In this document: piece by piece, positions 42,765 to 62,652 of the stretch
Numbering within the stretch: the first letter of the stretch is position 1
Layout: every line of letters begins with the position of its first letter
NCBI RefSeq assembly: GCF_000739655.1
Contig: NZ_BATR01000162.1
Coordinates: forward strand, 1 to 64,000
Source: Verrucomicrobium sp. BvORR106
GTDB lineage: Bacteria; Verrucomicrobiota; Verrucomicrobiia; Verrucomicrobiales; Verrucomicrobiaceae
Direction of reading: 5' to 3'
DNA length: 64,000 nt
Notes under the pieces: model-generated
The model's database searches: none
Seen by the model: the letters and a program-made list of their open reading frames with translations, nothing else
Told to the model about the DNA's origin: nothing
Program-made: the position numbers and the translations under genes

Positions 42765-44651
42765 ATGAAATTGAGTGCGACAACCGTGGCAGAGGCCGCT
42801 GCCCGCATGGGCGTGACCACGGAGGAATTGCAAGGAGTGCTGGCTCTGGGTGAAGAACGCACCTACAAGGCCGGCGATCATCTCTTTTACGAGTCCACCC
42901 CCCGGCGTTGGTTCGGCCTGGTGCTGGAGGGAGAGGTCGAGTTGAGTCACGGGTTGAGCGGCATGTCCGTGCACATTGCCACGGCAGCAGAGGGCAGCCT
43001 CCTCAGTGAAGGGGTGCTCTTTGACGACCTCCCTCACGCCACCACCGCCATGACCCGCTCAGGGAGCGTGATATGGGAACTGTCCATCGACCGTGTGCAG
43101 CAACTCCGCGCGACTTCGCCGGGGCTGTTCTACCGCATCTGCGGGAACGTGGCCAGCCACGTCGGCCGCCGCCTTCGCGAGTCCAACCGCAGACTCTCCC
43201 TGCTCATGTCGCAGGCACCCACCTTGAGCGGATTTCGTCGTGAGCACGACCTCCTGGGTGAGCGCGACATCCCCGCCTCCGCCTACTATGGCATCCAGAC
43301 CCTCCGGGCGGTGGAAAACTTCCCGCTCTCCGGCATCAAGCTGCATCACTTCCGCCACTTCATTGTGGCGCTGGCCTTTGTGAAAAAGGCCGCCGCCCTC
43401 GCCAACATGCAGCTGCACGTGCTCAAGGAAGACCGGGCCCGGGCCATCGCCGCAGCGTGCGATGAAATCATCGAGGGCAAGCTGCACCACCAGTTCGTGG
43501 TGGACATGTTTCAGGGCGGTGCCGGCACCTCCACGAACATGAATGCCAACGAGGTGATCGCCAATCGTGCCCTGGAACTCATGGGCCATGAGCGTGGGCA
43601 GTACCAGTTCTGCCACCCCAACGATCACGTGAACTGCTCCCAGTCCACCAACGATGTGTACCCCACCGCCGTGAAGCTGGGTGTGTACCTCACGGTGCGG
43701 GACACCCTTTCCGCCCTGCGGGATCTGCGCGAAGCCCTGCTGGCCAAGTCCACCCAGTTCAGTCATGTACTGAAAATGGGCCGCACGGAGAACCAGGATG
43801 CCGTCCCCATGACGCTCGGTCAGGAGTTCGGAGCTTATGCGGTCATGATCGGTGACGGCCTGCGTCATCTGGAGCGTGCCGCTTCAGATCTCCTGTATGT
43901 GAACATGGGCGCCACCGCCATCGGCACCGGCATCAACAGCCCTCCCAGCTATGCAGACATCTGCACGCGCCGTCTGGCAGATGTCAGCGGTCTGCCGGTG
44001 CAACTCGCGGAAAACCTTGTCGAGGCCACTCAAGACTCAGGAGAGTTCTCCATGCTCAGCGGCGTCATGAAGACCGCCGCCGTCCAGCTTTCCAAGATCT
44101 GCAACGACCTCCGCTGGCTCTCCTCCGGCCCCCGTTGTGGCTTGTATGAGATCCGCCTGCCCGCCATGCAGCCCGGCTCCTCCATCATGCCCGGCAAGGT
44201 CAATCCCGTCATCCTCGAGGCCGTGAACCAGATCTGCTACCAGATCATCGGCTTTGACATGACCATCTCCATGGCGGCTGAGGCCAGCGAGCTTGAGCTC
44301 AACATGGCCGAGCCCGTCATCGCCTTCGACCTGCTCTTTGGCCTCACCCTGCTGCGCAACGGCGCCATCATTCTTGCCAGCCGCTGCATCTCCGGGATCG
44401 AAGCCAACGAAGACCGCTGCATGCAGTACGTGCAGCAATCCATCGGCCTCGCCACCGCATTGAATCCCGTGCTGGGGTATGAGCGCTCCGTCGCCATCGC
44501 CCGCGAAGCCCTCGCCACCGGGTCCAGCGTGTACGATCTGGTGCTGCAGAAAAACTGGCTCACCCGCGAGCAGTTGGAAGACCTGCTCAAGCCAGAGAAC
44601 ATGACCCATCCCCGTCAGCTTCCCGAAGCCCCGCCCGCCGCGGATATTTGA
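42765..44651 (+). CDS. aspA: Aspartate ammonia-lyase with N-terminal cyclic-nucleotide-binding-like domain
   Basis: 628 aa from the ATG at 42765, against about 470 for ordinary aspartase. Residues about 160-615 are the lyase: GERDIPASAYYGIQT, GGAGTSTNMNANEVIANRAL, NDHVNCSQSTNDVYPTA and the signature GSSIMPGKVNPV around 471-482. It interconverts aspartate with fumarate and ammonia. Residues about 1-150 form a cNMP-binding/Crp-like beta-roll (YKAGDHLFYE, FGLVLEGEVELSH, GSLLSEGVLFDDLPHATTAM, VIWELSIDRVQQL). The phosphate cassette lacks the usual Arg, so the ligand may not be cAMP. No DNA-binding domain is present, so allosteric control of the enzyme is the likely role. Confidence 0.9.
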   Translation: MKLSATTVAEAAARMGVTTEELQGVLALGEERTYKAGDHLFYESTPRRWFGLVLEGEVELSHGLSGMSVHIATAAEGSLLSEGVLFDDLPHATTAMTRSGSVIWELSIDRVQQLRATSPGLFYRICGNVASHVGRRLRESNRRLSLLMSQAPTLSGFRREHDLLGERDIPASAYYGIQTLRAVENFPLSGIKLHHFRHFIVALAFVKKAAALANMQLHVLKEDRARAIAAACDEIIEGKLHHQFVVDMFQGGAGTSTNMNANEVIANRALELMGHERGQYQFCHPNDHVNCSQSTNDVYPTAVKLGVYLTVRDTLSALRDLREALLAKSTQFSHVLKMGRTENQDAVPMTLGQEFGAYAVMIGDGLRHLERAASDLLYVNMGATAIGTGINSPPSYADICTRRLADVSGLPVQLAENLVEATQDSGEFSMLSGVMKTAAVQLSKICNDLRWLSSGPRCGLYEIRLPAMQPGSSIMPGKVNPVILEAVNQICYQIIGFDMTISMAAEASELELNMAEPVIAFDLLFGLTLLRNGAIILASRCISGIEANEDRCMQYVQQSIGLATALNPVLGYERSVAIAREALATGSSVYDLVLQKNWLTREQLEDLLKPENMTHPRQLPEAPPAADI

Positions 44652-45312: not shown

Positions 45313-46386
45313 ATGGGCCTGATGGATTATTTCAAAGGACAGTTTCTCGAAATCATCGAGTGGACTGATGACTCTCGCGACACGCTTTCCTACCGCTTCG
45401 TGGACGAAGACAAGGAGATCAAGAACGGCGCCCAGCTCATCGTGCGGGAATCGCAAGTGGCCCAGTTCGTGTATCTCGGCCAGTTCGGCGACACCTTCGG
45501 TCCCGGCAAGCACACCCTGGTCACGGACAACATCCCGATCCTCAGCACCCTCAAGGGTTGGAAGTACGGCTTCAATTCCCCGTTCAAGGCGGACGTGTAC
45601 TACGTCACCACCCGCCTCTTCACGGGCAACAAGTGGGGCACCAGCAACCCCATCATGATGCGCGACCAGGACTTCGGCATCGTGCGGGCCCGCGCCTTTG
45701 GCACCTTTGACTTCCGCATCGTCGATCCCAAGCTTTTCCTCAAGGAAGTAGCCGGTTCCGACCATCACTTCCGCCTGGACGAGTTCGCCGACACCATGCG
45801 CTCCCGCATTGTCAGCGTGTTCAGCGACGCCATCGCCTCCGCCAAGATCCCGGTGCTGGACCTCGCCACCCGCTACACGGATCTGGGGGATGCCCTGCTG
45901 CCGCTCATCAACCCCACCCTGCAGGCCAAGTACGGCATCGAGTTCCCCAGCTTCATCCTGGAGAACGTGAGCGTGCCGCCGGAAGTGGAAGCCGCCATCG
46001 ACAAGCGCAGCAGCATGAGCGCGATCGGCAACCTCAACGACTACGTGAAGTTCCAGATGGCCGAAGGCATGGCCAAGGGCGGCGGCGCTGGCGCCCCGGC
46101 CGAGATGGCCATGGGCTTTGCCATGGCGCAGGAGATGATGAAGAACACCAACCTCTCTCAAGGAGGAGGAGGCGCTCCGCCCCCACTTCCGGGTGGTGCT
46201 CCCGCAGCCGCAGCGGCTCCAGCGCTGAATGTGGACGTGCTCACGCCAGCTCAGGTCGCCCAGGTTCTAGGTGTTACAGAGGCAGACGTCATCTCCAGCA
46301 TCGACTCCGGTGACCTCAAGGGCAAAAAGATTGGCAGCGCCTACCGTATCACCCGCGCCGCGCTGGACGACTTCCTGAAACACTAG
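45313..46386 (+). CDS. SPFH-domain protein (YdjI-like) with C-terminal HTH
   Basis: 357 aa. Residues about 10-230 match the 'SPFH / virion core' group related to B. subtilis YdjI: QFLEIIEWTDDSRDTLSYRF, GQLIV-type AQLIVRESQVAQFVYLGQ, then ITDNIPI-type and FGTFDFRIVDPKLFLKEVAG. A Gly/Ala/Pro-rich flexible linker (about 250-300) leads to a C-terminal ~50-residue excisionase/MerR-like helix-turn-helix (TPAQVAQVLGVTEADVISSI, then KKIGSAYRITRAALDDFLKH). SPFH proteins assemble at membranes; the HTH here may bind DNA or a protein. The next gene encodes a zinc-ribbon membrane protein, the same pairing as in ydjI neighbourhoods. Confidence 0.83.
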   Translation: MGLMDYFKGQFLEIIEWTDDSRDTLSYRFVDEDKEIKNGAQLIVRESQVAQFVYLGQFGDTFGPGKHTLVTDNIPILSTLKGWKYGFNSPFKADVYYVTTRLFTGNKWGTSNPIMMRDQDFGIVRARAFGTFDFRIVDPKLFLKEVAGSDHHFRLDEFADTMRSRIVSVFSDAIASAKIPVLDLATRYTDLGDALLPLINPTLQAKYGIEFPSFILENVSVPPEVEAAIDKRSSMSAIGNLNDYVKFQMAEGMAKGGGAGAPAEMAMGFAMAQEMMKNTNLSQGGGGAPPPLPGGAPAAAAAPALNVDVLTPAQVAQVLGVTEADVISSIDSGDLKGKKIGSAYRITRAALDDFLKH

Positions 46387-47984: not shown

Positions 47985-48130
47985 CGTATCGAGAAATTAT
48001 GGCAGCTAAACACAGCCACTTTTCTTAGAAATATTTATTCTCGGATCGAAAGTTTTCTTCTTCTAGAACCGGAGCTTTTTGGTATTTCTGGATTCATTCA
48101 TTTCGAGAAAATTCCGTCCAGTTATCACAT
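47985..48130 (+). promoter_or_regulatory. AT-rich leader upstream of the giant PEP-CTERM gene
   Basis: A stretch rich in A and T (for example TTTCTTAGAAATATTTATTC and GAAAGTTTTCTTCTTCTAGAA) stands out from the GC-rich surroundings. It lies about 165-310 bases upstream of the start at 48295. It contains palindromic TTCTAGAA-type elements. It probably holds the promoter and a long 5' leader. No Shine-Dalgarno tract is seen before the ATG. Confidence 0.45.
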
Positions 48131-48294
48131 CGTCGTTACCCGCGCTTCACATTGCGGCTACAAACGCGTGCCCAAACCGTCTCTGCGCAGCCGGCCGGGC
48201 GATGCGGCGGTGGCCCGTGTCTTTTCTCCCAGGGGTGCCTCTATCATCCCTACTTCTCTTTTCTGACCTCAAAAACTTCGCCTTCGCGACTGCC

Positions 48295-51200
48295 ATGAAC
48301 TCCTCCCGACGCCCTGCTTTCCGAATCCTTCAGGCCCCATTGATTGCGGCCATCGCAGCAGCCTGGGGAGGGTTGTTCGCGCCCGGGATCACCGCTGCGG
48401 ACGGGACCTGGGTGGCCACCAGTGGCGGGACCTACTACTGGCTGGACACCAATGCGGGCAATGCCAACACCCCCTTCGTGCCACCGTGGGGCGTCATCGG
48501 TGCAGGCACCTCAGAAGATCCGTTCATCCTGGGCCCCATCCCCAATCAAGTGGGGGACGTCGCCAATCTCAATAACAACATTGCCGGAAGCCAAACCATC
48601 ATCCTCAGTGTGCCCATCACCTTGGGCACTCTGAACATCGGAGACGCCGATTCCAGCCACGCCTACACCATCGCTCCTGGCACAGCAGGCAAGTTCCTAT
48701 TGGACGTCACCAGTGGCAACGCTGCCATCAACAAGACCGGCACCGCCACGGATGTGATTTCGGCCGCCGTCGAGCTGCAAGATCCCACCATCGTAAATGT
48801 GGCCACGGGAGGGCAGCTCAATCTGACCGGAACCGTTTCGGGGGCCACCACGTTGAGCAAAGAAGGCAAAGGCACGCTGCTCTTGGGTGGAGCCAACACC
48901 TACAACGGAGGCACCACCCTGGTTGACGGCACGGTCACGGTCGCCTCCAGCACCGTCGGCGGCCTTGCCGGGTCATCCATCAGCTCCGGTCCCCTGGGCA
49001 CCGGTACCGTCACCATCGCTTCTGGAGGCACGGCGACATTGAGATCTGACTCGGGCTCCCTCCGCACCCTGGCCAATGCACTGATCGCCAACGCCGACTT
49101 CAACCTTGGAGCACTGGGCTCAGGCTCTCTCATGCTGGGTGGTACCGTCAATCTTGGTGCCGGATCGCCCCGCACCATCACGGTCACAGGCAATCAGTTC
49201 ATCACCGGAGCCGTATCCGGTGGCAGCCTGAGCGTGGCAGGGACCGGCACGCTCCACCTGCGGGGCGCAAACACGCAATCCACACTCACGCTCGGGACTG
49301 GGAGCACGGTGGTCGTTGGCACCACCACCGCCTTGGGAGCCGGTCAGGTCACCGTCAATGGGGCCACGATCGCCTCCGACACGGCCCGCACCCTGACCAA
49401 CGCATGGTTGCTCAATGGAGATCTGACCCTCGGAGGCAACCCTCTCAACGCGGGAAGCTACGACGGCCTGCTGACCCTGAGTGGCACCATCAACCTCAAT
49501 GGCACCCGTACCATCACCACCAACACCTCTGGTGTTCCCACGACCATCACCACGGTGGCAGACACATTGAGCGGCGTCATCTCCGGTGGGGCATTGATCA
49601 AGGCGGGAAATGGTCGTCTGGTACTTTCCGCTACCAACACCACCATTACCGGCATCACCATCAACCAGGGCGTGCTGGCGTTTGGGGCACCTGCCAACCT
49701 TGGCAACAACCCTGGCACCGTGGCGGCTGGCGCAGGATTCATCACCCTCAACGGTGGCACGCTCGCCTACACGGGGACCAACCAGCAGAATGCACAGACT
49801 AACATGGGAGTCGCCATCACTGCGGCCTCCACTATCCAGGTCAACGATGCTGGCGGCACTTTTGTGCTCTTCAACAACACCGCGGCAACCATCACCGGCA
49901 CAGGCAACCTCAACAAGACCGGACTGGGTGCACTCCACATCGTTGGCAGCGCCAACAGTTCCTGGTCAGGCACGCTGAACATTGTGGGCGGTTCCGTCAT
50001 CGCCGGCTCTTCAGGTGCCGCCAGTACAGGCAGTCTCCTGGCCGCCGTGACCGCCATCAACGTCCAGTCGGGCGGCACTTTTCGCATCCTCAACGGTACC
50101 GCCGCAGGGGGCATCAGCACCGATCGCGTCAACAATGCCGCGGGCATCACCCTGAACGGCGGCACACTGTTCTTCGACACCACCCCGACTGCCGGCTTCG
50201 ACTATGAGGAAACGCTTGGTGCCATCACGCTCAACCGGGGCAACAACACCATCACCTCAGACGGAGCCAGCGCCACCGTCGGGGACACCTCCATCCTCAC
50301 GATCACGAACCTGGTGCGCACGGCTGGCACGAATCGCGGTGTGGTGAACTTCAACTCCGCCGACGCAGGACTCCTCGGAACCAGCGATCGCAATCGCATC
50401 ATTCTCACCAATCTCAATGGCTCCGCCCCTGCGGCTGGCTTCATCGGAGGCTGGGCCACGGTGGGCACGGCGGCTTCCGGTACGGCCGCCGAGTGGGCGA
50501 AGTACGACGCCACCAACGGTGTGACCGCCTTCGCCGCCACCGACTACAATGCAGGCGGAGCCTTTCTCGAAAGCAGCATGACGGTCGCCACCTACCATGC
50601 CAAAATCGCCGCTGCCACCGCCGCCACCACCACCTTCGGAGGAGCACGAACCGCCGGTTCCCTGAATATCTCGTCCACTGCGGCCGCTGGGAACCAGACC
50701 ATTGCCCAGGCCGGGTTCAGCTACACGATCGACAGCGGCGGCATTCTGGTCAGCGGCACAGCCACCACCACGGCTCACAGCATCTCAGGCGGCAGTCTGC
50801 TGGTCGGCAGTGGCAATGAGCTCCTCATTCACCTCATCGGCTCGAACGCTCTCGGCATTGGCTCCTCGATCAATGGCAGCATTGCCGTCATCAAGAGCGG
50901 CGCCGGTGTCCTCACGCTCACCGGCTCCAACGGATTCACCGGTGGCCTGTTTCTTCATCAGGGTACCATCCGCCTTGTAAACTCCGTTTCCGGCAGCAGC
51001 AGTGCCCTGCCTACGGCCAACGCCATCACCGTGGTGAACGGCATCCTCGCCGGGAACAGCAGCAACCCGCTGGTCCTGGGCAACAGCATCACCATTCACG
51101 ACAGCCTCACTCTCGGTGATGCGACGGGCACGGGGCGGAACATCCTTACCGGTGCCGTCAACCTGGCCGCCCCTACGGAAGGCATTGCCTCCATCATCGC

Positions 51201-54200
51201 TCACACCAACACCACCACCACGATCACCGGCAACATCTCGGGCGGCAGCCTCCGCATCGCCCAGGTCGGTGCCACCGGCAGCGTGGAGCTTGCAGGAAAC
51301 AACACTTTCGCCTCCACTGACCGCATTCAGGTGGACTCCGGACTGCTGGGAGTGGGATCCTCGACCGCACTTGGCTCCGCCAAGATCGTCCTGAACGGAG
51401 GCGGCATCTTCAACGCTCTTGGCTACCGCGGCAAGGTCCTCAATGACGTCCTCATCACCGCCAGTTCCACCATCGGCAGTGCCGCCTATCTGGAAAAGAC
51501 AGACCTCGCCGGCACGGTGGACCTCTCCGGCACCTCCCGCCAGCTCACCGTCAACGGCATCCATCAGGAAATAAGCGGCCGCATCACCAACGGTGGCTTT
51601 GTGAAGGAAGGCAACGGAGTCCTGATCATCTCCGGGTCCTTGAACGATTATCTCGGCGGCACCACCCTCAATGACGGGGTCACCTGGCTCCGGGGCAATG
51701 CCACCCTTGGCGCCAACGTTGCGGGAAACAACATCGACCTGTCCGTGACGGCCAATCGCGATGCGGTGCTGCGGCTCGACGGACCGCAGAACATTGGCAG
51801 CAATCAGATCCTCTCCCTGGCCAGCCAGACCGCTACCGGCATGCCTACCCTGGTCCTGGGCACGGGGTTCTCAGGCACCACCGCCGCCGTCCCCCTGATT
51901 GACTTCAACACCACCGGCACGGGTATTCTCAATGTCCGCCTCAGCAACAATACCAACGACAAGGCGATGCTGGTGCTGGACGGCTGGGCGCTAAAGCATG
52001 ACCTCATCGCCGAGACCAACGCTGCGGCCCCCAATGCCCAGATTTGGATCGGCACAACAGGGGCCAACGGCTCCATCGCCACCGCCATCTCCGCCGGGCA
52101 AGGGAGCCTCTACCGCTTTGGCGGAGGCAGTGAGTCCAGCGTCGCCAGCAACAACGCTGCCGGGGTGCTCACTCTGGAGGCGAACGTCCTCGGCACCGCC
52201 ACGGGCATGATCATTGGCGCCCCCAACGCCACCGGTCTGTCCAACATCTCAGCCACCAGCCACGCCGTCTTTCTCAAGGGTGACCAGAGCAACTTCGCGG
52301 GATCCGTCACGTTTGGCAACGGGGGCACCGCCGTCGTCGCCAGCGGGCTGGCGATGGGCACCGGATCTGTGGTGAACCTGGACATGGGCGCTGTCGCCAA
52401 CGGTCTGGTTGCCTTCCGCAACAGCGGCTACAGCGGCTACACCAACGTCAACAACAGCTACAGTGGCAAGAACCTCAATGTCATCAGCGACTCCCGCATC
52501 CGGGTGGACGCCGATGGCGGCGGCCGCTCCTATGCCGTCCAGTTTGGCACCCTTGGCATCGGTGTCGTAGGAGGCGCCACCCGCACCTTTGAAGTGCAGG
52601 ACGCCTCAGCCAACGGCGAAATCCAGTTCAACACCGTCACCGCAAACTACAGCGGCTCAGGGACGGCCACCCTGGCCATCAACATCGGAGGCGGTTTCAC
52701 TCGCTTCGAGAACGGCATCGCCCAGTCAGGGGCTGGCACAATTAATCTCACCAAGAGCAACAGCACCGGCACTTTGATTATCGACGGCACCTCGGCCCTC
52801 ACTGGCATCACCACCATCCAGAGAGGCACCGTCATTCTCACCGGGACACAAGGCCTCTCCTCGGGAGGCCTGGTGCTGGGCAACGGAAGCGCCACCGCCA
52901 CGGAAGTCGCCGCCCTTCACCTTCGCAACGACGCCCTGAACTCATCTTACAATTTCGGGGCCATCTCCTTCACCAGCGGCACCGCCGGCCAGCAGACTCT
53001 CCTGACCGGGGCCATCACGAACACTGGCCTTACCGGAGGCACCCAGACCCTTGACGGCGCCGTCACCGTCAGCGGCCCCCGCACTCTCGGCGTCCAGGCA
53101 CTGCAGGGCCGCACGCTCAAGTCAACCGGCGCCTACTCCATCACCGGTGCCGCCGCGGAAACGTTCACCATCAACGTGGACCAGGGCAAATTCGAAATCA
53201 GCGGCAGCATCGACAGCACCACGGTGACCACCGCCATTACAAAAGGGGGGCGAGGCATCCTCACCTTGAGCGGAAGCAACAGCTTCAGTTCTGCCACCAC
53301 ATCCGTCTCCATCAGCAGCGGCACGCTGGTCCTCGCCCACGATCTCGCCCTCGGTGCCGCAGCCAAGACCGTCTCCTCCACCGGCGGCAGCTCGCACAAC
53401 GTGTACGCCTCCGGCACTCGTACGATCGCCAACAACATCGTGTCCAACTCCACGGTCACCCGCATCTTCGGCGGCATGGACAGCGGCTCCAAAACCTTCT
53501 CCGGCACCTTCAGCAACTCCGGAGCGGGCGGCTCTATCGGATTTCATGCGGCAACTGGCGGGGATACGACTTTTTCGGGCATTATTTCCTCCAGCTCCAC
53601 CACCGCCGTGAGCTACTTCAAGTACGGCCAGGGCCGGGTCATCCTCTCTGGAGCCAACACCTTTGGCAACGCCTCCTCCGGCACGGACCTCACGGTGGCC
53701 CGTGGCACGCTCGAAGGCATTGCCCAGGCGGCGGCCTCCCCCTTTGGCGCGGCGACCAATGACCTCATCATTGCCGGCGGCACCCTTCAGCTCACCGGCA
53801 TCGGTGTCACCACCAACACCTCGCTGGCCACGCTCACGGTTGGCGGCACGAACCTTGGTGGCTACCTTCACCTCCGCGATCTCGCCTCCGGGGACAGCAT
53901 CAACACCCAGCTGACCATCACGGCGGGCTCCGGGCAGCTCACCCGCACTGGACGCGGGGCTCTGGTCATCATTCCTCAGTTCGGCAATCTCGGCACCGAG
54001 GAACGCCTCACCTTCTCCACCGCCCCGGCCACGATCAACGGCATCCTTTCCCCCTGGCTGCTCACCCAGACCAGCGCCGCTGTCACGGATGGCAACTTTG
54101 TCAACATGAGCGGCACCAATGTCATCGCCAAGACCTACACACCCGGCACCACTCAGGGGGATCTCAATCTGATCGCCACGACGGCTGTTTCTGTCTTCGA

Positions 54201-57200
54201 CAACGACGTCGCCACCACCCTCACTGCGAACAAGAGCGTCTTCGCCCTGCGCACGAACAACAGCATCAATCTTGGGAACTTTGACCTGAGCCTCGGCGAT
54301 GTTGGCAACACGAACCCCGCTACCAACAACCCGGTGGCCGGCTTGATCCTCAACAATGGTGCGGGCATCTCCAACGGACGGATCCTCACCAATGCCTCTG
54401 AGACCGTGCTGTACGTGGGCGGCGGCAGCACCTCCACCATCAGTGCCTCCATCCGGGGTTCATCCCTCACATCCTCCATCTCCACTCTTTCCACCAATGT
54501 CCTCTCCAAGACCGGCGAGGGCACGCTGATCCTCAGCAGCACGGGCAACACCTACACCGGAGCCACCAACGTGATCGGGGGCACCCTCCGCGCCGGGGCC
54601 ACCAATGCCCTGGGTCGCCGCACCACCAACGGCCTCACCATCGCCTCCGGCCTGACCATTGCCGCCGGTGCGACCTTCGACATGGGCACCCTCGGCTTCG
54701 ACCAGCGCATCGGCAGCCTAGCAGGCCAGGGCACCCTCCAGCTGGGGAACAGACAGTTGATCGTGGGCGATGACAGCACCAGCACCGTCTTCGCCGGCCA
54801 GATCACCGGCACCGGCACCATCATCAAAACGGGAACAGGCGCCCTCGACTTCCAAAACGTGGACGCAGCCAACCCCAACAGCTTTGGCAACCTCTATGTG
54901 GACCAGGGCATCGCCCGCTTTGTTATTTCCGAAGGAGCCCCCCTCCCCTATGTCGTCAATGACCAGTTCCTCGCCACCACCACCAGCTCCATCCCCTCCG
55001 GTACGCTGGTCACGTTGCGCGGGGGTGAACTCCGCTTCTTCATCGCCGAAGACTTTGGCACGGGCATTTTCAACTCCCTCAACACTGGTGTGAATGTCAA
55101 CGTCCTCTATGGCGGCACGATCAACTCCGCCAGCGGCTACGCCGTGGGAGCCTTCACCGAGAACAAGTTCATCAACATCAACAACCTCACGGTCAACGAG
55201 ACCACGGTCACCTTCTCCAATGCCAACACGGTCGGCGTCAATGTGGCAGGCACCACCACCATGACCAACAACGCGAGGCTGGCCATTTCCAACGACACCA
55301 CCTTCAGCGGACAGATCACTGGATCAGGCAACAAAGGCTACACCCTCAACAAGACCGAGGCCGGGAACCTGGCCATTGCCAACTCAACCAACGACTACGC
55401 GGGCGGCACCGTCGTCACCGGCGGCCGCCTTCTCTTTGGCTCCCGCAACCTAGCATACGACTACGTCCACAACGTCAACACCTTCACCTACAACAGCACG
55501 GCCAAAGCGGGCACTGGTGACATCTGGATCAACCCCAACTCCCAGATCCGCCTTAGCGAGACCAACCTCCATGCCAACCAGTTGCTCTACATCCGCAGCG
55601 CCGGTGCTCCAGGAGTGGCCAACGCCAACCAGAGCCGTCTGGAGATGATCAACGACGCGAGCCTGGCCAACTACCACCTGCGCAGCACCACGAGCGGCGC
55701 CCTCACCCTCATGACGGGAAGCCAGAGCAGCCAGAACGGCGTCCATCCCGGGCGCTACACCCAGGTCATCGATCTGGCGATGGTGGGCAACGGCATGTGG
55801 GGTCTCGCCGCCGAAGACTTCGACGTGACCTACGACGCGGCCACCCTGGGTGCCGGGGCGGGCAATACCTACCGCTTCTTTGGCGGGGCTCAGCAGCTCA
55901 ACTTCAGCCGCGCCAATGTCCTCACCGGCACCGCCCGCGTCGAGGTCGGCATGTCCATGGGCACCCTTGGCGCCGCTCCCGGCAGCTCCGCAGCCATTGT
56001 CATGATCAACGCGGACCAGAACTACACCGGTGAGACCGTTGTTCACTCGAACCGCACCACCGGTGGCATCGCCAACGTGCTCCGGGTGCTGGCCGATCTT
56101 TCCCCCTCCACCAGCATCGAAAACTACGCGCGCGTCGAGCTCAATGGCTCCGGCCGTCTCACCGATGACAGCGGTCAGCAGGTCATCGACTACATCGCCC
56201 GCGGTGGCTCCAGCCTGCGACTCGACTATGACGCCGGCTTTGCCCCCTTCGTCAGCTCCCAGTCAAACTACCTCTCTGACACCAGCGTCGGCACCGGCAT
56301 CAATGCAGGCCCTCTCACCAACAAGTGGCAGGATGACCTCGCCATGACCCTCGTGGGTTCCCAACTCAACATCGTCAACGCCAACTCCCGGGACACCACA
56401 GAAATCATCGGGGGCCTCAACGTCTTTGGAGGCGGTGAAATCTACCTGGAGAGTCGCACGGCCGGGGCCACCAACCTTCTCATCAACGGCGCCATCAGCA
56501 TGAATGCAGGCTCGGTGCTCACCTTCCGCGCCCTCACCAACACCGTGCTCAATCCCGCTGGCGCCTCGAACCGCAAGGTGCTGATGGGGAACCCGGCCGA
56601 CATCCCGGCCTTCATCACGGTGAACGCCGTGACCCAGGCCATGATTTCACCCCGGTTTGTCACCGCTACCAGCAGCGCAGACATCCCCTACACCTTCACG
56701 ACCTATGACTCCGTGCTGGGGTTCAGCGCGGCAACCTTCAATGTCACCAGTGCCGGCACCGATCTCAGCACGGGTGCCAACGACGGCACGGCCATCGTCG
56801 ATGTCACCGCGGTGGCCACCCCATCGGCACCGGCGGACATTCTCGCCCTCCGCGCCCGCCAGAACATCAACGCGGGCAGTGCCATCACCATCCGCAGCGG
56901 TGGTCTCATCCTCTTCCCCGGAACGGCCGACACTGGCATCACCATCGGCACCAATCTCAACTTCGCCAACGGCAGCGCCGTGGACGCCTACATCTGGACC
57001 AGCCGCAACACCAGCCTGCAAACCCATACGATTTCAGGAAACATCACGGCCGCCGGCCTCATCGTTTCCGGAGTGAGCCAGCTCAACCTCAGCGGAAACA
57101 ACACCTTTAGTGGAAATGCCACCCTCAACGGTGGCATCCTCCAGTTCAACAGCGTGGCCTCCGCCAATGGGCTCGGCTCCATCACTCTCCACAGCGATTA

Positions 57201-60200
57201 TCACGAGAATCGTGACTTCGGCGGCGGGGTACGGCGCAGCTACGCCCGTCTCAATCTCACCGTCGCCTCCGGCGCCGTGAACTTCAACAAGGACCTGATC
57301 ATGGGCGCTGGCGTGCCCTTCGCCGAGTTTGTTCAGAGCGGCCAGGACGTGGAGTTCACCATGGCCAAGCTCATCTTTGAAGACGCTGGCAGCACCGGCT
57401 CCCTTATTTCCTTTGGCAACGGCAACAACGCCGACCTCGCCTTTACTGGCACCACCACGCTGGGCGGCACTCTCGTCAACATCAACGTCGGCGGCTCCAG
57501 CAACACGGTGCGTCTCGCAGGCGTCGTCTCCGGTGGCGCAAAACTGGTCAAGACCGGTGGCCAGGAGCTCCGTTTTGACTCAGAGGTCAACACCTTCACC
57601 GGAGGCATCGTGATCAACGAAGGTCTCGTGGACATGGTCAGCGCAGTCAATGGCGCCCACCTCGGCACCGGCCCGGTGGAAATCAATCGCGGCACCCTCC
57701 GCTCGCGCGGGGACACCGGTCTGGTCAACTACATGAGCAATCCCAATGGCATGCTCACCGTCCGCGGCAACGGCACCATCCTTGATGTTCGCCGCGTGTC
57801 TGGCACCACCACCATCGCCCATCTCTGGGGCAGCGCCTCCTCTGTCCTGCGCACTGAGAACAGTCCGTTCATCATCGTTCAACAGTCCGGCAACGTCCAG
57901 CTCCGCTGGGTGGGTGACGTGGTCATCAATGACAACCCCATCATCCGTACGGACACGGAACTTGACGCCAGCTCCGTGCGCGGTGCCCTGGTGTTCGGCA
58001 ACCAGCTGGCCAACACTGAAGTGAGCGGGTCCGGTTTCATCTACAAGTACGGGGCCGGTACTTTGACCTACAACTACAATGCGCCCAGCACCTACAGTGG
58101 TGGCATCCAGGTTTCCCAGGGGATCCTCCGGGCCAACACCGTGAACGACTCCTTCACGACCGGCTCGACCGGGACCGGTGGCATCTACATCGCACCCGGT
58201 GCCTCCATTCATGTACAGAGCCTTGCCAACCTCAACAACAGCTCCGCCACCATCCGCCAGTTTCACAGCAACAGCACGGCCACCGCCGTGCTCAGCCTGA
58301 CTGGCGCAGCCTTGAACACTGCCAATCCCACCAGCTTCCTCAGCGCAGCAGCGGTCACCAGCGGCAATGCCAATGGCAGTGTGGTCAACACCCTGGGTGG
58401 GGGCTCCAATGGTGGCGTCATCAACCTTCAAGGGGTCACCTACACCGGCAGCCTCGACATGGGCTCGCTCTTTGGCGGCTACTGGTTCCTTGGCGGCGGT
58501 GTCTTCAACAATGCCACCTATTCCAACGCCACCCTCGGGGTGGGTGCTGGCAACGTGTATCGCCTGGGTGGTGGTGATGGCCAGATCATCTTCAACCAGG
58601 CCAACGTCTTCACGGGGTCGGCCAACCTGCTCATTGGCAAGGCCCTTGCCTTCCAGGGCGGCGGCACAGTGCAGATCACGAACAGCAACAACTTCACCGG
58701 CACCCTGGTGGAGGTCACTCAAAGCCGGAACCGGTTCGGGGAAAGCAACGGCATCCAGCTCACCAGCAACACGCTTCAGACCAACCAAGGTGGATTCGGT
58801 TCGGCGTCCACCCCCTTTGGCACCGCCACCGTCCAGCTCGTCGGCACCCTGCAGTACTTCAGCAGCAACGGATCCAACGTTAACAACTTGGGCACAGGGA
58901 ATCGCAACGCCGTGGTGTTCCACATCGGTTCCCGGCTTCTTTTTGACAACGACAACGGCGTCACCTCCACCGCCGTGAACAGCAACCAGGGCCGCTGGGC
59001 GGACAATGTCGGCATCGCCCTCAACGGCTCTGTCATCCAGCTGGCCGGTGAGGGGGTCACTGCCAACACCACGGGTCAGAGCGAGACGGTGGGAGCAGTC
59101 ACCTTCGATCGCGGTTCCGCCGCCCGGGTCGTACGCCAGGCCGACGATGGTGCTGAGTTCGTCTTTGCCTCTCTGCTGCGCACCGGTAGCGGAACGCTCA
59201 CTCTAACCCACACGGCCAACATCCTGGGCACCAACGCCACTAACGCCAACAACAATGCCGCCAACGTGGAGCGCATCATGGTAAGCGCTGGCGTTGGCAC
59301 GGTGGGAACTGGCATCGCACTGGAGTCTGGCAGCACCGCCGGCACCGATCTCCGCTCCCTCGTAGGCAATGATGCGGACATGCTCAACCCCTACATTGTA
59401 AGCCGCTCCGAACGCCAGTTCACCCGCTACAACGCCACCAACGGCATCCAGACCTACTTCACCAACGGCACCACCACTGCCAACCACTACCTGCGCGTTC
59501 AAACATCGAACCAGACGATCGGTGCCGGGCGCTCCATCGCCAACGCTGGCATCACGTCCGTCACTGCCGGGACTGCCGCCTTCGGCGGTTCCGTCACCAT
59601 GGCCAACAACGGCACCGAGATCCTCGATGTCAGCGCCGTCACCGCCACCCTCGGCTCTGACACCGACGTGCTGGCCGTCCGCCTTGGCGGCTCGGGCGGC
59701 TCCATTGTCGCGGATGCGGCCAACCTCTTCACCACCCTGACCATCCGCAGCGGCGGCCTCATCGCCGGCACCACCGACAACGCCAACGTCATCCGCACCA
59801 ATCTGATCTTCGGCAAGGCGGGCAGCCTGCGCGAGGCGTTCATCTACATTGATCAAAACACCCTCACCATCGACGGTCAGATCCAGGCCAGTGGCATCAC
59901 CAAGTTTGGTTCCGCGGGCAATGACGCCGGCGTACTCACCATTGCCCAGGACCAGGCCAGTTTCGCCGGCACCTGGACGGTGAACGGCGGCACGCTGCAA
60001 GTCATGACCAGCTACGGCCTCGGCACCAACGGCACGAACGAGATCGTGCTCAACGGCTTCGTGAACCCAGACGGCGGCAGCGACCAGAACTTCAAAACGG
60101 AACTGCGGTTCAACCTCAACTCCACGGGCAACGCCGTCTTTGGTGATGCTTCCTTGAACCGGTTCTACCACGGCACCATCACTGCCTGGAACCAGAACAC

Positions 60201-62652
60201 CATTCGCGCCGTCACGGCCAATGACCGCCAGTACCAGATCGGCAACATCGACGCCAAGACCACCTACACCGCCGGCATGACCATGCCCGGGGTGCTGCAA
60301 TTCCGCGTGGACGGCAGCCGCACCCGCCTGCTCACCGGAGAGGTCCGCCTGTTTGACGACTATGCCCTCTATGTTGATGCCTCCAGCTTTGGGCCGGGTT
60401 CCACCGTGGGCGTCATTCCCGCCCTCATCAACAACCAGGGTGACTACGATGTGACCAAGCTCGGCGACGGGGTCCTCTACTTGGGCGACATGTCCGGAGC
60501 CAACGGCCTCTCGGGCAGTCACTTCTTCACCGTCAACGAAGGGGCCGTGCGGGTCTCCAGCAATGGCTCCTTCGGCACTGCCGCCATGACCGCCATCATC
60601 GACAACGGCGGTGCCATTGACGTCGCCGTCGCCAACTACGCCTCCACGGCCACCCTGGTCCAGCAAAACGGATCCATCGAGCGCTGGTCAGTGGACGGGG
60701 CTCGGGCAACGGGCTTCAACCTGGCCAGCGGCGTGCACCTGCAGATCAATGCGGACCAGACCGGCACGCAGACACTGGGGCTCAACGGGGGCTCCGTCAT
60801 GGGCTACCTCGCCATTGACCTGGATGAGATTGCCGTCATCCGCACCCTCGGCAGCAATGTCGACATCAACCTGCTGGCAGACAGCTTCCTCGGTCAACCT
60901 TACGTGGGCGGTGGCGCTCACCGTTTCTACGACATCGGCAAGGTCAACGCCTACAACAACCCCTTCGATCCCCGCCTCCAAGGTACGATGCTCCAGATCA
61001 AAGGCGACATCAGTGGCAACTTCAACCTCACGAAGATCGGTCAGGACGTCGTCCTCCTGGCTGGCACCAATACTTACAAAGACACCATCGTACGTGAAGG
61101 CGTGCTGATGGCCGGGGCGGACAACACCCTCCCCGGCACCGGAAGGGTCACCACCACGGCCAACGGCGTGCTGGACCTCAATGGTTTCCACCAGATCGTC
61201 GGCAGCATTTCCGGCAGCTCCGGCATCATCACCAGTGGTGCCACCACCCGCACCACCCTGAGCACGGGTGCAGACGGCTCCAGCACGACTTACACGGGTG
61301 TCCTGGCCCAGTCCATCCAGCTAAACAAGGTGGGCGCCGGAGAACTAACGCTCGGCTCCGCTCCACTCAGCGCCGTTGTCACCGCAGACAGCACGGTCGT
61401 GACCGGGATCGCCAACACTGCCAATCTGGTCGTCGGCATGTCCGTCAGCGGCCCAGGCATCCCGGCCGGAGCCACCATCTCCCGTATTCTCAGCAGCAGC
61501 TCTGTCGAACTCTCCACCAAGGCCACCGCCTCCGGCACCAGCCTTGCCGTGGGCAACACCCACAACGGTGGCAACATCTTGACCGGTGGCAAACTGAAGG
61601 TCTTCGCCGATGCGGCCCTGGGCACCGCCCCCAGCACGGCCGCCATCGGGTCTGACAACCTCACCTTCAACGGCGGCACGTTGCATGTGGCGGAAACCTT
61701 CGAGGTCAACTCCAACCGGGGCGTCCGCCTCAACGCAGGTGGTGGCACCGTGGAAGTGGATGACACAAAGACCTTCACCATCTCCAGCATGGTCGCTGGA
61801 GTGGGCCAGTTTGCCAAAACAGGAACCGGTCTGCTTCAGTTCAACACCGCCAGCACCCACACCGGGAAGACCTCCGTGGATGCCGGGACCTTCAAGATGG
61901 GCTCCAGCGCCTCCCTTGCGGACTCCAGCTGGATCGAGGTAAAAACCGGCGCGGTGCTGGATACGGTGGCCGTGGCCGGCGGTGCCCAGGTGGATGGAGT
62001 CGTCAGTGGCACGGGCACCGTGAACGGCTCCCTGGTAATTTCCAGCAACCGCGGCAGCGCCAACTCCTCCGGTGTCCTCAAGCCGGGCGGGGCTGGCACC
62101 GATCTGGTGGCCAATGCAGGCGAGCTCAACGGCACGCTCACGATCAACGGGAACCTGACCCTTGACGGCGCAGCCACCGCTACCACCCGGGCAGTCTTCA
62201 GCGTCACCACGGCCACGGTCAACGACTCTGCTGGCATCCTCGCGGCCACGACCAGCAACACGCTCACGAACTACCTGGTGAGCAATGAAGTGACATGGAA
62301 TAGTGCCACTCCGGGAAACCACGATGTCCTCGTGGTCAACGGCACCGTGGACTTCCACTACAATGGTCAGATTGAAGTCATCAATTGGAACCCGGTACTG
62401 GGCGATGTCGTCGATCTCATGGACTGGAGCACCGTTCTCATGAATGACTTCCGCCACGGTGGTGACCTTCTCACCAACGCCCGGGTGGGAGGTGCTGTCG
62501 GAGACCTTATCCTGCCCACCCTTGCGTCCGGTCTCACCTACGACATGACGCTTTTCTACACCAGCGGCATCGTGGTAGTCGCCCCTGAGCCAGGCCGGTT
62601 CATCCTGCTGGCCTTTGGCCTCAGTCTCCTGATGTTCCGCCGCAAACGTTAA
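48295..62652 (+). CDS. Giant secreted PEP-CTERM protein with autotransporter-associated beta-strand repeats
   Basis: 4785 aa from the ATG at 48295; the frame is open 72 codons further up, but a signal peptide begins at MNSSRRPAFRILQAP and cleaves near residue 35. About twenty units match the autotransporter-associated beta-strand repeat (PF12951/TIGR02601), pattern KxGxGTLxLxGxNTYxGGTxxxxGTL; examples are KEGKGTLLLGGANTYNGGTT near 189 and KTGEGTLILSSTGNTYTGAT. The sequence is rich in Gly, Thr, Asn and Ser, and I saw no cysteine. A long parallel beta-helix stalk is expected. The C-terminus (PEPGRFILLAFGLSLLMFRR) is a PEP-CTERM signal for exosortase, not an autotransporter barrel. It is probably surface-displayed or matrix-bound, possibly adhesive. 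Confidence 0.93.
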   Translation: MNSSRRPAFRILQAPLIAAIAAAWGGLFAPGITAADGTWVATSGGTYYWLDTNAGNANTPFVPPWGVIGAGTSEDPFILGPIPNQVGDVANLNNNIAGSQTIILSVPITLGTLNIGDADSSHAYTIAPGTAGKFLLDVTSGNAAINKTGTATDVISAAVELQDPTIVNVATGGQLNLTGTVSGATTLSKEGKGTLLLGGANTYNGGTTLVDGTVTVASSTVGGLAGSSISSGPLGTGTVTIASGGTATLRSDSGSLRTLANALIANADFNLGALGSGSLMLGGTVNLGAGSPRTITVTGNQFITGAVSGGSLSVAGTGTLHLRGANTQSTLTLGTGSTVVVGTTTALGAGQVTVNGATIASDTARTLTNAWLLNGDLTLGGNPLNAGSYDGLLTLSGTINLNGTRTITTNTSGVPTTITTVADTLSGVISGGALIKAGNGRLVLSATNTTITGITINQGVLAFGAPANLGNNPGTVAAGAGFITLNGGTLAYTGTNQQNAQTNMGVAITAASTIQVNDAGGTFVLFNNTAATITGTGNLNKTGLGALHIVGSANSSWSGTLNIVGGSVIAGSSGAASTGSLLAAVTAINVQSGGTFRILNGTAAGGISTDRVNNAAGITLNGGTLFFDTTPTAGFDYEETLGAITLNRGNNTITSDGASATVGDTSILTITNLVRTAGTNRGVVNFNSADAGLLGTSDRNRIILTNLNGSAPAAGFIGGWATVGTAASGTAAEWAKYDATNGVTAFAATDYNAGGAFLESSMTVATYHAKIAAATAATTTFGGARTAGSLNISSTAAAGNQTIAQAGFSYTIDSGGILVSGTATTTAHSISGGSLLVGSGNELLIHLIGSNALGIGSSINGSIAVIKSGAGVLTLTGSNGFTGGLFLHQGTIRLVNSVSGSSSALPTANAITVVNGILAGNSSNPLVLGNSITIHDSLTLGDATGTGRNILTGAVNLAAPTEGIASIIAHTNTTTTITGNISGGSLRIAQVGATGSVELAGNNTFASTDRIQVDSGLLGVGSSTALGSAKIVLNGGGIFNALGYRGKVLNDVLITASSTIGSAAYLEKTDLAGTVDLSGTSRQLTVNGIHQEISGRITNGGFVKEGNGVLIISGSLNDYLGGTTLNDGVTWLRGNATLGANVAGNNIDLSVTANRDAVLRLDGPQNIGSNQILSLASQTATGMPTLVLGTGFSGTTAAVPLIDFNTTGTGILNVRLSNNTNDKAMLVLDGWALKHDLIAETNAAAPNAQIWIGTTGANGSIATAISAGQGSLYRFGGGSESSVASNNAAGVLTLEANVLGTATGMIIGAPNATGLSNISATSHAVFLKGDQSNFAGSVTFGNGGTAVVASGLAMGTGSVVNLDMGAVANGLVAFRNSGYSGYTNVNNSYSGKNLNVISDSRIRVDADGGGRSYAVQFGTLGIGVVGGATRTFEVQDASANGEIQFNTVTANYSGSGTATLAINIGGGFTRFENGIAQSGAGTINLTKSNSTGTLIIDGTSALTGITTIQRGTVILTGTQGLSSGGLVLGNGSATATEVAALHLRNDALNSSYNFGAISFTSGTAGQQTLLTGAITNTGLTGGTQTLDGAVTVSGPRTLGVQALQGRTLKSTGAYSITGAAAETFTINVDQGKFEISGSIDSTTVTTAITKGGRGILTLSGSNSFSSATTSVSISSGTLVLAHDLALGAAAKTVSSTGGSSHNVYASGTRTIANNIVSNSTVTRIFGGMDSGSKTFSGTFSNSGAGGSIGFHAATGGDTTFSGIISSSSTTAVSYFKYGQGRVILSGANTFGNASSGTDLTVARGTLEGIAQAAASPFGAATNDLIIAGGTLQLTGIGVTTNTSLATLTVGGTNLGGYLHLRDLASGDSINTQLTITAGSGQLTRTGRGALVIIPQFGNLGTEERLTFSTAPATINGILSPWLLTQTSAAVTDGNFVNMSGTNVIAKTYTPGTTQGDLNLIATTAVSVFDNDVATTLTANKSVFALRTNNSINLGNFDLSLGDVGNTNPATNNPVAGLILNNGAGISNGRILTNASETVLYVGGGSTSTISASIRGSSLTSSISTLSTNVLSKTGEGTLILSSTGNTYTGATNVIGGTLRAGATNALGRRTTNGLTIASGLTIAAGATFDMGTLGFDQRIGSLAGQGTLQLGNRQLIVGDDSTSTVFAGQITGTGTIIKTGTGALDFQNVDAANPNSFGNLYVDQGIARFVISEGAPLPYVVNDQFLATTTSSIPSGTLVTLRGGELRFFIAEDFGTGIFNSLNTGVNVNVLYGGTINSASGYAVGAFTENKFININNLTVNETTVTFSNANTVGVNVAGTTTMTNNARLAISNDTTFSGQITGSGNKGYTLNKTEAGNLAIANSTNDYAGGTVVTGGRLLFGSRNLAYDYVHNVNTFTYNSTAKAGTGDIWINPNSQIRLSETNLHANQLLYIRSAGAPGVANANQSRLEMINDASLANYHLRSTTSGALTLMTGSQSSQNGVHPGRYTQVIDLAMVGNGMWGLAAEDFDVTYDAATLGAGAGNTYRFFGGAQQLNFSRANVLTGTARVEVGMSMGTLGAAPGSSAAIVMINADQNYTGETVVHSNRTTGGIANVLRVLADLSPSTSIENYARVELNGSGRLTDDSGQQVIDYIARGGSSLRLDYDAGFAPFVSSQSNYLSDTSVGTGINAGPLTNKWQDDLAMTLVGSQLNIVNANSRDTTEIIGGLNVFGGGEIYLESRTAGATNLLINGAISMNAGSVLTFRALTNTVLNPAGASNRKVLMGNPADIPAFITVNAVTQAMISPRFVTATSSADIPYTFTTYDSVLGFSAATFNVTSAGTDLSTGANDGTAIVDVTAVATPSAPADILALRARQNINAGSAITIRSGGLILFPGTADTGITIGTNLNFANGSAVDAYIWTSRNTSLQTHTISGNITAAGLIVSGVSQLNLSGNNTFSGNATLNGGILQFNSVASANGLGSITLHSDYHENRDFGGGVRRSYARLNLTVASGAVNFNKDLIMGAGVPFAEFVQSGQDVEFTMAKLIFEDAGSTGSLISFGNGNNADLAFTGTTTLGGTLVNINVGGSSNTVRLAGVVSGGAKLVKTGGQELRFDSEVNTFTGGIVINEGLVDMVSAVNGAHLGTGPVEINRGTLRSRGDTGLVNYMSNPNGMLTVRGNGTILDVRRVSGTTTIAHLWGSASSVLRTENSPFIIVQQSGNVQLRWVGDVVINDNPIIRTDTELDASSVRGALVFGNQLANTEVSGSGFIYKYGAGTLTYNYNAPSTYSGGIQVSQGILRANTVNDSFTTGSTGTGGIYIAPGASIHVQSLANLNNSSATIRQFHSNSTATAVLSLTGAALNTANPTSFLSAAAVTSGNANGSVVNTLGGGSNGGVINLQGVTYTGSLDMGSLFGGYWFLGGGVFNNATYSNATLGVGAGNVYRLGGGDGQIIFNQANVFTGSANLLIGKALAFQGGGTVQITNSNNFTGTLVEVTQSRNRFGESNGIQLTSNTLQTNQGGFGSASTPFGTATVQLVGTLQYFSSNGSNVNNLGTGNRNAVVFHIGSRLLFDNDNGVTSTAVNSNQGRWADNVGIALNGSVIQLAGEGVTANTTGQSETVGAVTFDRGSAARVVRQADDGAEFVFASLLRTGSGTLTLTHTANILGTNATNANNNAANVERIMVSAGVGTVGTGIALESGSTAGTDLRSLVGNDADMLNPYIVSRSERQFTRYNATNGIQTYFTNGTTTANHYLRVQTSNQTIGAGRSIANAGITSVTAGTAAFGGSVTMANNGTEILDVSAVTATLGSDTDVLAVRLGGSGGSIVADAANLFTTLTIRSGGLIAGTTDNANVIRTNLIFGKAGSLREAFIYIDQNTLTIDGQIQASGITKFGSAGNDAGVLTIAQDQASFAGTWTVNGGTLQVMTSYGLGTNGTNEIVLNGFVNPDGGSDQNFKTELRFNLNSTGNAVFGDASLNRFYHGTITAWNQNTIRAVTANDRQYQIGNIDAKTTYTAGMTMPGVLQFRVDGSRTRLLTGEVRLFDDYALYVDASSFGPGSTVGVIPALINNQGDYDVTKLGDGVLYLGDMSGANGLSGSHFFTVNEGAVRVSSNGSFGTAAMTAIIDNGGAIDVAVANYASTATLVQQNGSIERWSVDGARATGFNLASGVHLQINADQTGTQTLGLNGGSVMGYLAIDLDEIAVIRTLGSNVDINLLADSFLGQPYVGGGAHRFYDIGKVNAYNNPFDPRLQGTMLQIKGDISGNFNLTKIGQDVVLLAGTNTYKDTIVREGVLMAGADNTLPGTGRVTTTANGVLDLNGFHQIVGSISGSSGIITSGATTRTTLSTGADGSSTTYTGVLAQSIQLNKVGAGELTLGSAPLSAVVTADSTVVTGIANTANLVVGMSVSGPGIPAGATISRILSSSSVELSTKATASGTSLAVGNTHNGGNILTGGKLKVFADAALGTAPSTAAIGSDNLTFNGGTLHVAETFEVNSNRGVRLNAGGGTVEVDDTKTFTISSMVAGVGQFAKTGTGLLQFNTASTHTGKTSVDAGTFKMGSSASLADSSWIEVKTGAVLDTVAVAGGAQVDGVVSGTGTVNGSLVISSNRGSANSSGVLKPGGAGTDLVANAGELNGTLTINGNLTLDGAATATTRAVFSVTTATVNDSAGILAATTSNTLTNYLVSNEVTWNSATPGNHDVLVVNGTVDFHYNGQIEVINWNPVLGDVVDLMDWSTVLMNDFRHGGDLLTNARVGGAVGDLILPTLASGLTYDMTLFYTSGIVVVAPEPGRFILLAFGLSLLMFRRKR

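Follow-up and report, generated by a model that had tools for sequence, protein, structure and literature searches.

The aspartases compared here, E. coli AspA (1jsw), Bacillus AspB (1j3u) and the enzyme in entry 6wng, are chains of 468-478 amino acids, and the E. coli enzyme is reportedly a partner of GlnB in an interaction named in a paper title. In E. coli, aspA and dcuA form one operon and DcuA swaps aspartate for fumarate or succinate (PMC10634366, in excerpt), and the two genes are also neighbours in L178, an E. coli plasmid record. Cyclic-nucleotide-binding (CNB) domains have been described in a different setting, that of CRP/GlxR and the PKA regulatory subunit. The phosphate-binding cassette of PKA has the consensus GELALIYGTPRAATV, its Arg209 co-evolved with Gly169 of the beta2-beta3 loop, and in PDZ-GEF proteins the place of the cassette Arg is taken by Met or His (PMC2246266, in excerpt). 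Metabolic enzymes fused to a CNB domain are already in print, for example the phosphoglycerate kinase-like proteins of trypanosomatids, some of whose enzyme domains are predicted to be inactive (excerpts of PMC7729029). The nucleoside-binding PKA regulatory subunit of trypanosomatids is a case in which the Arg209 equivalent is replaced and the ribose-binding Glu is present (PMC10959531, in excerpt).

Here we describe a protein of Verrucomicrobium sp. BvORR106, encoded in a 64,000-nucleotide stretch of contig NZ_BATR01000162.1 (the window), which joins an N-terminal CNB domain to an aspartase in one chain. It has the whole lyase, the catalytic residues and the SS loop in common with the three aspartases above, and among solved structures it is closest to 6wng, "Aspartate ammonia-lyase" (E 1.4e-166); however, the match of these chains is confined to its residues 154-618, and they are thus without a CNB domain. 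With CRP/GlxR and PKA it shares the CNB fold and the cassette Glu, but it has His at Arg209 and Arg at Gly169, and a lyase takes the place of the DNA-binding or second CNB domain. The trypanosomatid phosphoglycerate kinase-like proteins likewise combine a metabolic-enzyme domain and a CNB domain, although both the enzyme and the lineage differ. The nucleoside-binding type has Glu at the Ala202 position (PMC10959531, in excerpt), whereas all 25 distinct fused sequences that we collected have Val, Ala, Ile or Met there (17, 4, 2 and 2 sequences, respectively), so that the fused CNB domain is not of that type.

Protein databases probably carry the CNB-aspartase architecture as an automatic annotation. 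In the open-licence literature, with most subscription papers outside its scope, we found no paper on a CNB domain fused to aspartase or acetate kinase, none that combines PduL, acetate kinase and a cyclic nucleotide, and none on a glutaminase-STAS-CNB protein. A broader search, covering titles and the starts of abstracts, gave nothing on the fusion among the matches listed.

Domain plan, fold and cassette

The original prediction placed a CNB domain and a complete aspartase in a single open frame with no DNA-binding domain, and coordinates, frame and Pfam domains agree with it (Table 1). The PF00027 match has an E-value of 2.6e-9 and 37.4 bits against a Pfam cut-off of 27.5, and PF00206 matches with 311 bits. 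No DNA-binding domain of the window protein reached its Pfam cut-off; the lyase comes after the beta-roll, with no C-terminal helix-turn-helix, and a weak helix-turn-helix-like match at residues 3-35 (E 0.067) falls under the cut-off. A TTG lies in frame 36 bases upstream of the ATG, but the alignment with paralogues begins at the ATG.

Table 1. Features of the fusion gene in the window and of CNB-fused genes at other loci
Feature	Position	Strand	Basis or remark
CNB-aspartase fusion, 628 aa, one open frame	42765..44651	+	ATG 42765, stop 44651
Cyclic-nucleotide-binding (cNMP/CNB) domain, residues 32-117	42858..43115	+	PF00027 and predicted fold like CRP-/PKA-type CNB structures
Arg47 codon, beta2-beta3 loop, putative PKA Gly169 equivalent	42903..42905	+	Alignment to 2pqq
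Phosphate-binding-cassette equivalent, residues 77-95	42993..43049	+	Alignments
Glu82 codon, retained cassette Glu	43008..43010	+	25/25 fused
His91 codon, in place of the cyclic-phosphate-binding Arg	43035..43037	+	25/25 fused, 1/65 unfused
Long C-terminal CNB helix and hinge to lyase, residues 119-156	43119..43232	+	Helix 119-147 in full-length model
Lyase_1 domain, residues 165-496	43257..44252	+	PF00206
GRTENQDAVP, residues 339-348	43779-43808		22/25 fused lyases; GRTQLQDAVP in E. coli-type enzymes
Catalytic SS loop GSSIMPGKVNP, residues 471-481	44175..44207	+	Ser472, Ser473, Met475, Lys478, Asn480 in 25/25 fused
FumaraseC_C domain, residues 562-615	44448..44609	+	PF10415
CNB-acetate kinase-PduL, 770-772 aa	L066 9187-11499		PF00027, PF00871, PF06130
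CNB-acetate kinase-PduL, 770-772 aa	L071 6272-8590		By clustering
CNB-acetate kinase-PduL, 770-772 aa	L084 7863-10178		PF00027, PF00871, PF06130
Pyridine-nucleotide oxidoreductase (NDH-2-like) with CNB and apparently CBS domains, own genome C29	L155 979-3045		By reading
CNB-thioredoxin-reductase-like protein, own genome C49	L160 1384-3090		By reading

The lyase scores 713.1 bits with the NCBIfam aspartate ammonia-lyase subfamily model NF008909 (cut-off 510) and 674.6 bits with the aspA equivalog TIGR00839, just under the cut-off of 681.2, so that we name the enzyme from the subfamily model, the residues and the context. The predicted identity as an aspartase is borne out by NF008909 and the catalytic residues: T255, S294, T295, N296, T341, S472, S473, M475, K478 and N480 are present in all 25 fused lyases, with catalytic roles that we take from work on their AspB counterparts. 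At residue 295 they share Thr with the compared aspartases; the 15 fumarase-type rows have Ser there. Judged by its sequence, the enzyme appears to be a normal-looking aspartate ammonia-lyase, complete by itself. One difference is that 22 of the 25 fused lyases have Glu-Asn in GRTxxQDAVP where E. coli-type aspartases have Gln-Leu; none of the nine CNB-free aspartases of the tree set has the Glu-Asn, and the change presumably adjoins the site of the substrate amino group.

The N-part is a real protein and not a chance frame. An AlphaFold2 model of it (pLDDT 81.2) is a beta-roll with flanking helices that matches GlxR with cAMP (3r6s, Z 15.7, rmsd 2.8 over 141 residues) and Thermus CAP (4ev0, Z 14.8, rmsd 3.4 over 146 residues), so the CNB-like fold proposed in the original prediction was recovered by structure prediction. 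The full-length model has a pLDDT of 71.5 with residues 142-190 below 50, and the interdomain geometry is not fixed by it. Across three pairs formed by the window copy and two same-genus genomes, the N-domain has dN/dS values of 0.061, 0.089 and 0.098, and the lyase of the same three genomes 0.015-0.033. Outside its own orthologues, N-domain identity to the window protein is 27-47% across 20 aligned rows. Translation from an internal start, giving an enzyme of normal length, had also been considered. The window copy has Met148, as do its orthologues L067 and L069, but none of the nine other rows of alignment A1 has it at that column; since it is found in these three rows only and selection on the N-part is purifying in the three genomes of the genus, Met148 is ruled out as the start of the main product. 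A small amount of internal product may be made from it.

The cassette text GSLLSEGVLFDDLPHATTAM given in the original prediction matches the window translation exactly, and the cassette reads SEGVLFDDLPHATTA when aligned to the PKA consensus. It had been called degenerate for want of the canonical Arg. That Arg is indeed gone, with His91 in its place in 25 of 25 distinct fused sequences, but the pattern is not one of decay, as Glu82 is also kept in 25 of 25 and Arg47 in 23 of 25 (Pro in the other two). Pro46 is likewise found in all 25; identical or contained sequences were merged before counting and near-copies kept separate. Among 65 unfused CNB domains, which were taken from the fetched loci for their match to the fused profile (E of 1e-5 or better) and are not a random sample, position 91 is Arg in 36, Ala in 13, Tyr in 10 and His in one, and position 47 is Arg in one. 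A further single-domain CNB protein of the same genome, outside the 65 (L159 1390-1914, contig C80), reads GPHTATV, with His in place of the cassette Arg, so the fusion is not alone in having this His. Glu82 and His91 belong to the N-domain sites under the strongest constraint. Because His91 and Arg47 fill the coupled Arg209 and Gly169 sites in 23 of the 25 sequences, the pocket appears to have been substituted and kept by selection.

Occurrence, neighbours and companion proteins

The fusion is sparse, yet it is found in more than one phylum. Our searches extended it well beyond the genome of origin, to the 25 distinct sequences, which come mostly from Verrucomicrobiota and from a few Chloroflexota and Thermodesulfobacteriota assemblies. 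Genomes met again in later draws were counted once. Among 38 genomes comprising the own genome and its relatives, six have the fusion, at eight places, the own genome twice. In the class, the N-domain profile has matches at 1e-15 in 44 of 335 genomes, 10 of which have the fusion, at 13 places; all 10 of the places that were fetched are full fusions. There is a gap in score, the fusions reaching at least 147 bits and the rest at most 81.4, though several of the 10 class genomes are themselves rows of the search profile (alignment A3), which raises their scores here and in the phylum scans; the frames shown for the rest encode single CNB proteins or CNB proteins of other kinds. Twelve matches came from a scan of named genomes, and 10 of these are full fusions: Verrucomicrobium sp. 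BvORR034, Chthoniobacter flavus, two Haloferula, an Opitutaceae bin, three other Verrucomicrobiota bins, a Geobacteraceae bin and an Anaerolineae bin. The last two are metagenome bins and could be mis-binned. Among 247 genomes of Thermodesulfobacteriota, the phylum of the Geobacteraceae bin by tree label, three match including the seed and all three are fusions; the fusions L143 and L144 are from genomes of this phylum, and L144 is quite divergent. The phylum of the Anaerolineae bin has seven matches in 301 genomes, with the seed as the sole fusion. Five of eight genomes match in the class of G1138, which alone has a frame read as a fusion, and the second match of G1090 sits in a 914-aa frame. 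No fused copy was found on plasmids, as none of the 375 plasmid records that match P0001 covers 80% of it.

In the lyase tree, 22 of the 25 fused lyases form one clade (100/99), and the pair L043/L044 and L144 are placed elsewhere, among CNB-free aspartases, giving three changes of label. This tree holds nine CNB-free aspartases, eight from plasmid records, and six of the 15 fumarase-type rows; 18 rows had first been called unfused, from which the truncated fused genes L169 and L170 were dropped, L126 proved to be an aspartase and 15 were fumarase-type. Forcing all 25 fused lyases together lowers the log-likelihood by 15.95 and is not rejected (AU p 0.096). All 25 also group in the CNB tree (SH-aLRT 87), a tree made by a quick method with a midpoint root and long branches.

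We compared 22 neighbourhoods, which include orthologues and are not independent. In 12 of them the fusion gene is directly preceded, on its own strand, by a DcuA/DcuB-family gene (by Pfam in L066, L082 and L143 and by BLAST clustering elsewhere); the other 10 lack one upstream. Some flanks are short, with 311, 145, 63 and 51 bases downstream in L067, L089, L143 and L144 and 28 bases upstream in L087. Asparaginase is encoded at L082 and L083, a permease of the Asp/Ala-exchanger family at L082 and L086, and glutaminase at L082; PEP carboxykinase is found at L086 (Pfam) and L074 (by reading) and pyruvate kinase at L071 (Pfam) and L070 (by reading). The window copy stands alone, adjoined by genes for an MFS transporter and an SMP-30-like protein, with no Dcu-type C4-dicarboxylate transporter in its neighbourhood, and its orthologues L067 and L069 have upstream neighbours in common with it. 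The downstream gene (45313-46386, plus strand) encodes an SPFH/Band 7 protein with a C-terminal helix-turn-helix (HTH_17) domain. The window also holds a 4857-aa autotransporter-like frame with passenger-associated transport repeats (PF12951) at 48079-62652 on the plus strand.

In four of the 22 loci, including the second copy of the own genome (L066), the next gene encodes a fusion of CNB, acetate kinase and PduL phosphotransacetylase. Across all loci with this fusion, L066 and L084 were identified by Pfam, L068 and L171 by BLAST, and L071 by clustering. The gene at L068 (4998-7310, genome G001) is split into a 646-aa frame and a 123-aa frame with the remaining PduL, which is either a real break or a sequencing error. 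These proteins likewise have an N-terminal CNB domain without the cassette Arg on a metabolic enzyme, but the enzyme is another one, the cassette (GELALMSGDPAVADL in L066) has Ala in three of them and Met in L084 rather than His, and there is no equivalent of Arg47. Among 318 genomes of the phylum three have this fusion, the third being that of L171, and all three also have CNB-aspartase; G129 has CNB-aspartase and no match to the acetate kinase fusion. At L066 the gaps from Dcu through aspartase to a DUF1269 gene are 9-37 bases on one strand, so that these genes probably form one operon; after CNB-acetate kinase-PduL come the DUF1269 gene and a succinate dehydrogenase/fumarate reductase flavoprotein (Pfam), beside which cytochrome-b-like and iron-sulphur-like frames were recognized by reading.

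PF00027 is found at 11 places in the own genome, including the two CNB-aspartases and CNB-acetate kinase-PduL. By reading, the others are a glutaminase-STAS-CNB protein (L154, contig C103), a SulP-like transporter-STAS-CNB protein (L156, C108), four single-domain proteins and the two oxidoreductase-like fusions of Table 1. Among these other CNB fusions, the Pfam assignments are for relatives of glutaminase-STAS-CNB (L077, L078 and L080). Glutaminase-STAS-CNB, in the own and related genomes, likewise pairs a nitrogen-releasing enzyme with a CNB domain, but there the CNB is C-terminal, has the canonical cassette Arg (FGEMALLDEAPRSAVV in L154) and is separated from the enzyme by STAS. The own genome also has five matches to class III cyclases (PF00211), so cyclic nucleotides may be made in a cell whose aspartase cassette is without the residue that grips them.

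Role of the N-terminal domain

We favour, at about even chances, the reading that this is an allosterically gated aspartase in which the CNB domain would act as an in-cis switch with a ligand other than canonical cAMP/cGMP. A small ligand would bind the pocket around Glu82, His91 and possibly Arg47 and would shift the long C-helix, which runs on into the N-terminus of the lyase, setting aspartase activity, and the conversion of L-aspartate to fumarate and ammonia would thus come under CNB control. CNB-acetate kinase-PduL of the sister clusters would answer to this signal or to a parallel one, and the window copy, which stands by itself, would provide a second regulated aspartase with separate expression. 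This reading is favoured by the family and fold, the selection on the N-domain, the invariant substituted pocket and the intact catalytic residues, as well as by Dcu in 12 of 22 loci, amide-scavenging genes in some and CNB-acetate kinase-PduL in four; the aspartase of E. coli, too, is reportedly under a regulator, GlnB. It is disfavoured by the open interdomain geometry of the model, the lack of the sister neighbourhood around the window copy, the 10 of 22 loci without upstream Dcu (one of them, L087, with its 28 bases only) and the absence of the acetate kinase fusion from G129, and also by L159, which shares the cassette His without being fused to an enzyme. The domain may also bind nothing, as the phosphate-holding Arg is missing in all 25 sequences. 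Direct ligand control of aspartate/fumarate/ammonia exchange, as suggested by the original prediction, fits the domain plan and the neighbourhoods of the sister copies. More tentatively, and with the odds against it, the substituted CNB domains (Arg47/Glu82/His91) may be a subfamily with a rewritten pocket that senses a ligand new to the fold and gates aspartase, a second Arg-less CNB gating acetate kinase-phosphotransacetylase in the sister clusters.

The chief rival holds that the CNB domain is an assembly or docking module joining aspartase to Dcu, to CNB-acetate kinase-PduL or to another tetramer in a metabolon. Loss of the phosphate-binding Arg would suit such a role, as would the adjoining transporter gene in 12 loci and the gene of another CNB-fused enzyme in four; however, Glu82 and His91 of the ligand cassette are among the most constrained sites of the N-domain, fusions such as that of the window lack these neighbours, and we regard docking as rather unlikely. 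A lower probability still attaches to the idea that cAMP or cGMP is bound after all, with Arg47 and His91 replacing the Arg in an ordinary cyclic-nucleotide-controlled aspartase. The invariant Glu82, the five cyclase matches and the basic residues at two cassette-linked sites speak for it, but a change of Arg to Lys at the PKA site lowers cAMP affinity nearly ten-fold (PMC2246266, in excerpt) and Arg47 is missing in two of the 25 fused sequences. That the domain is a structural remnant, serving stability or solubility with no regulatory role, agrees with the replacement of both the canonical cassette Arg and the loop Gly and with a lyase complete by itself, but is the least probable account given dN/dS values of 0.06-0.10 in three same-genus genomes and His, Glu and Pro residues that are invariant across divergent sequences.

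The combination of His and Arg provides a precise and testable mark of this subfamily. If the CNB domain switches the enzyme, the aspartate/fumarate/ammonia branch point would be under direct control beside transcriptional control, and the fusion would offer a single-chain system for finding a new CNB ligand. Should the rewritten-pocket reading be true, one or two signals would set both the supply of aspartate-derived fumarate and the formation of acetate at the level of the enzymes, in more than one phylum.
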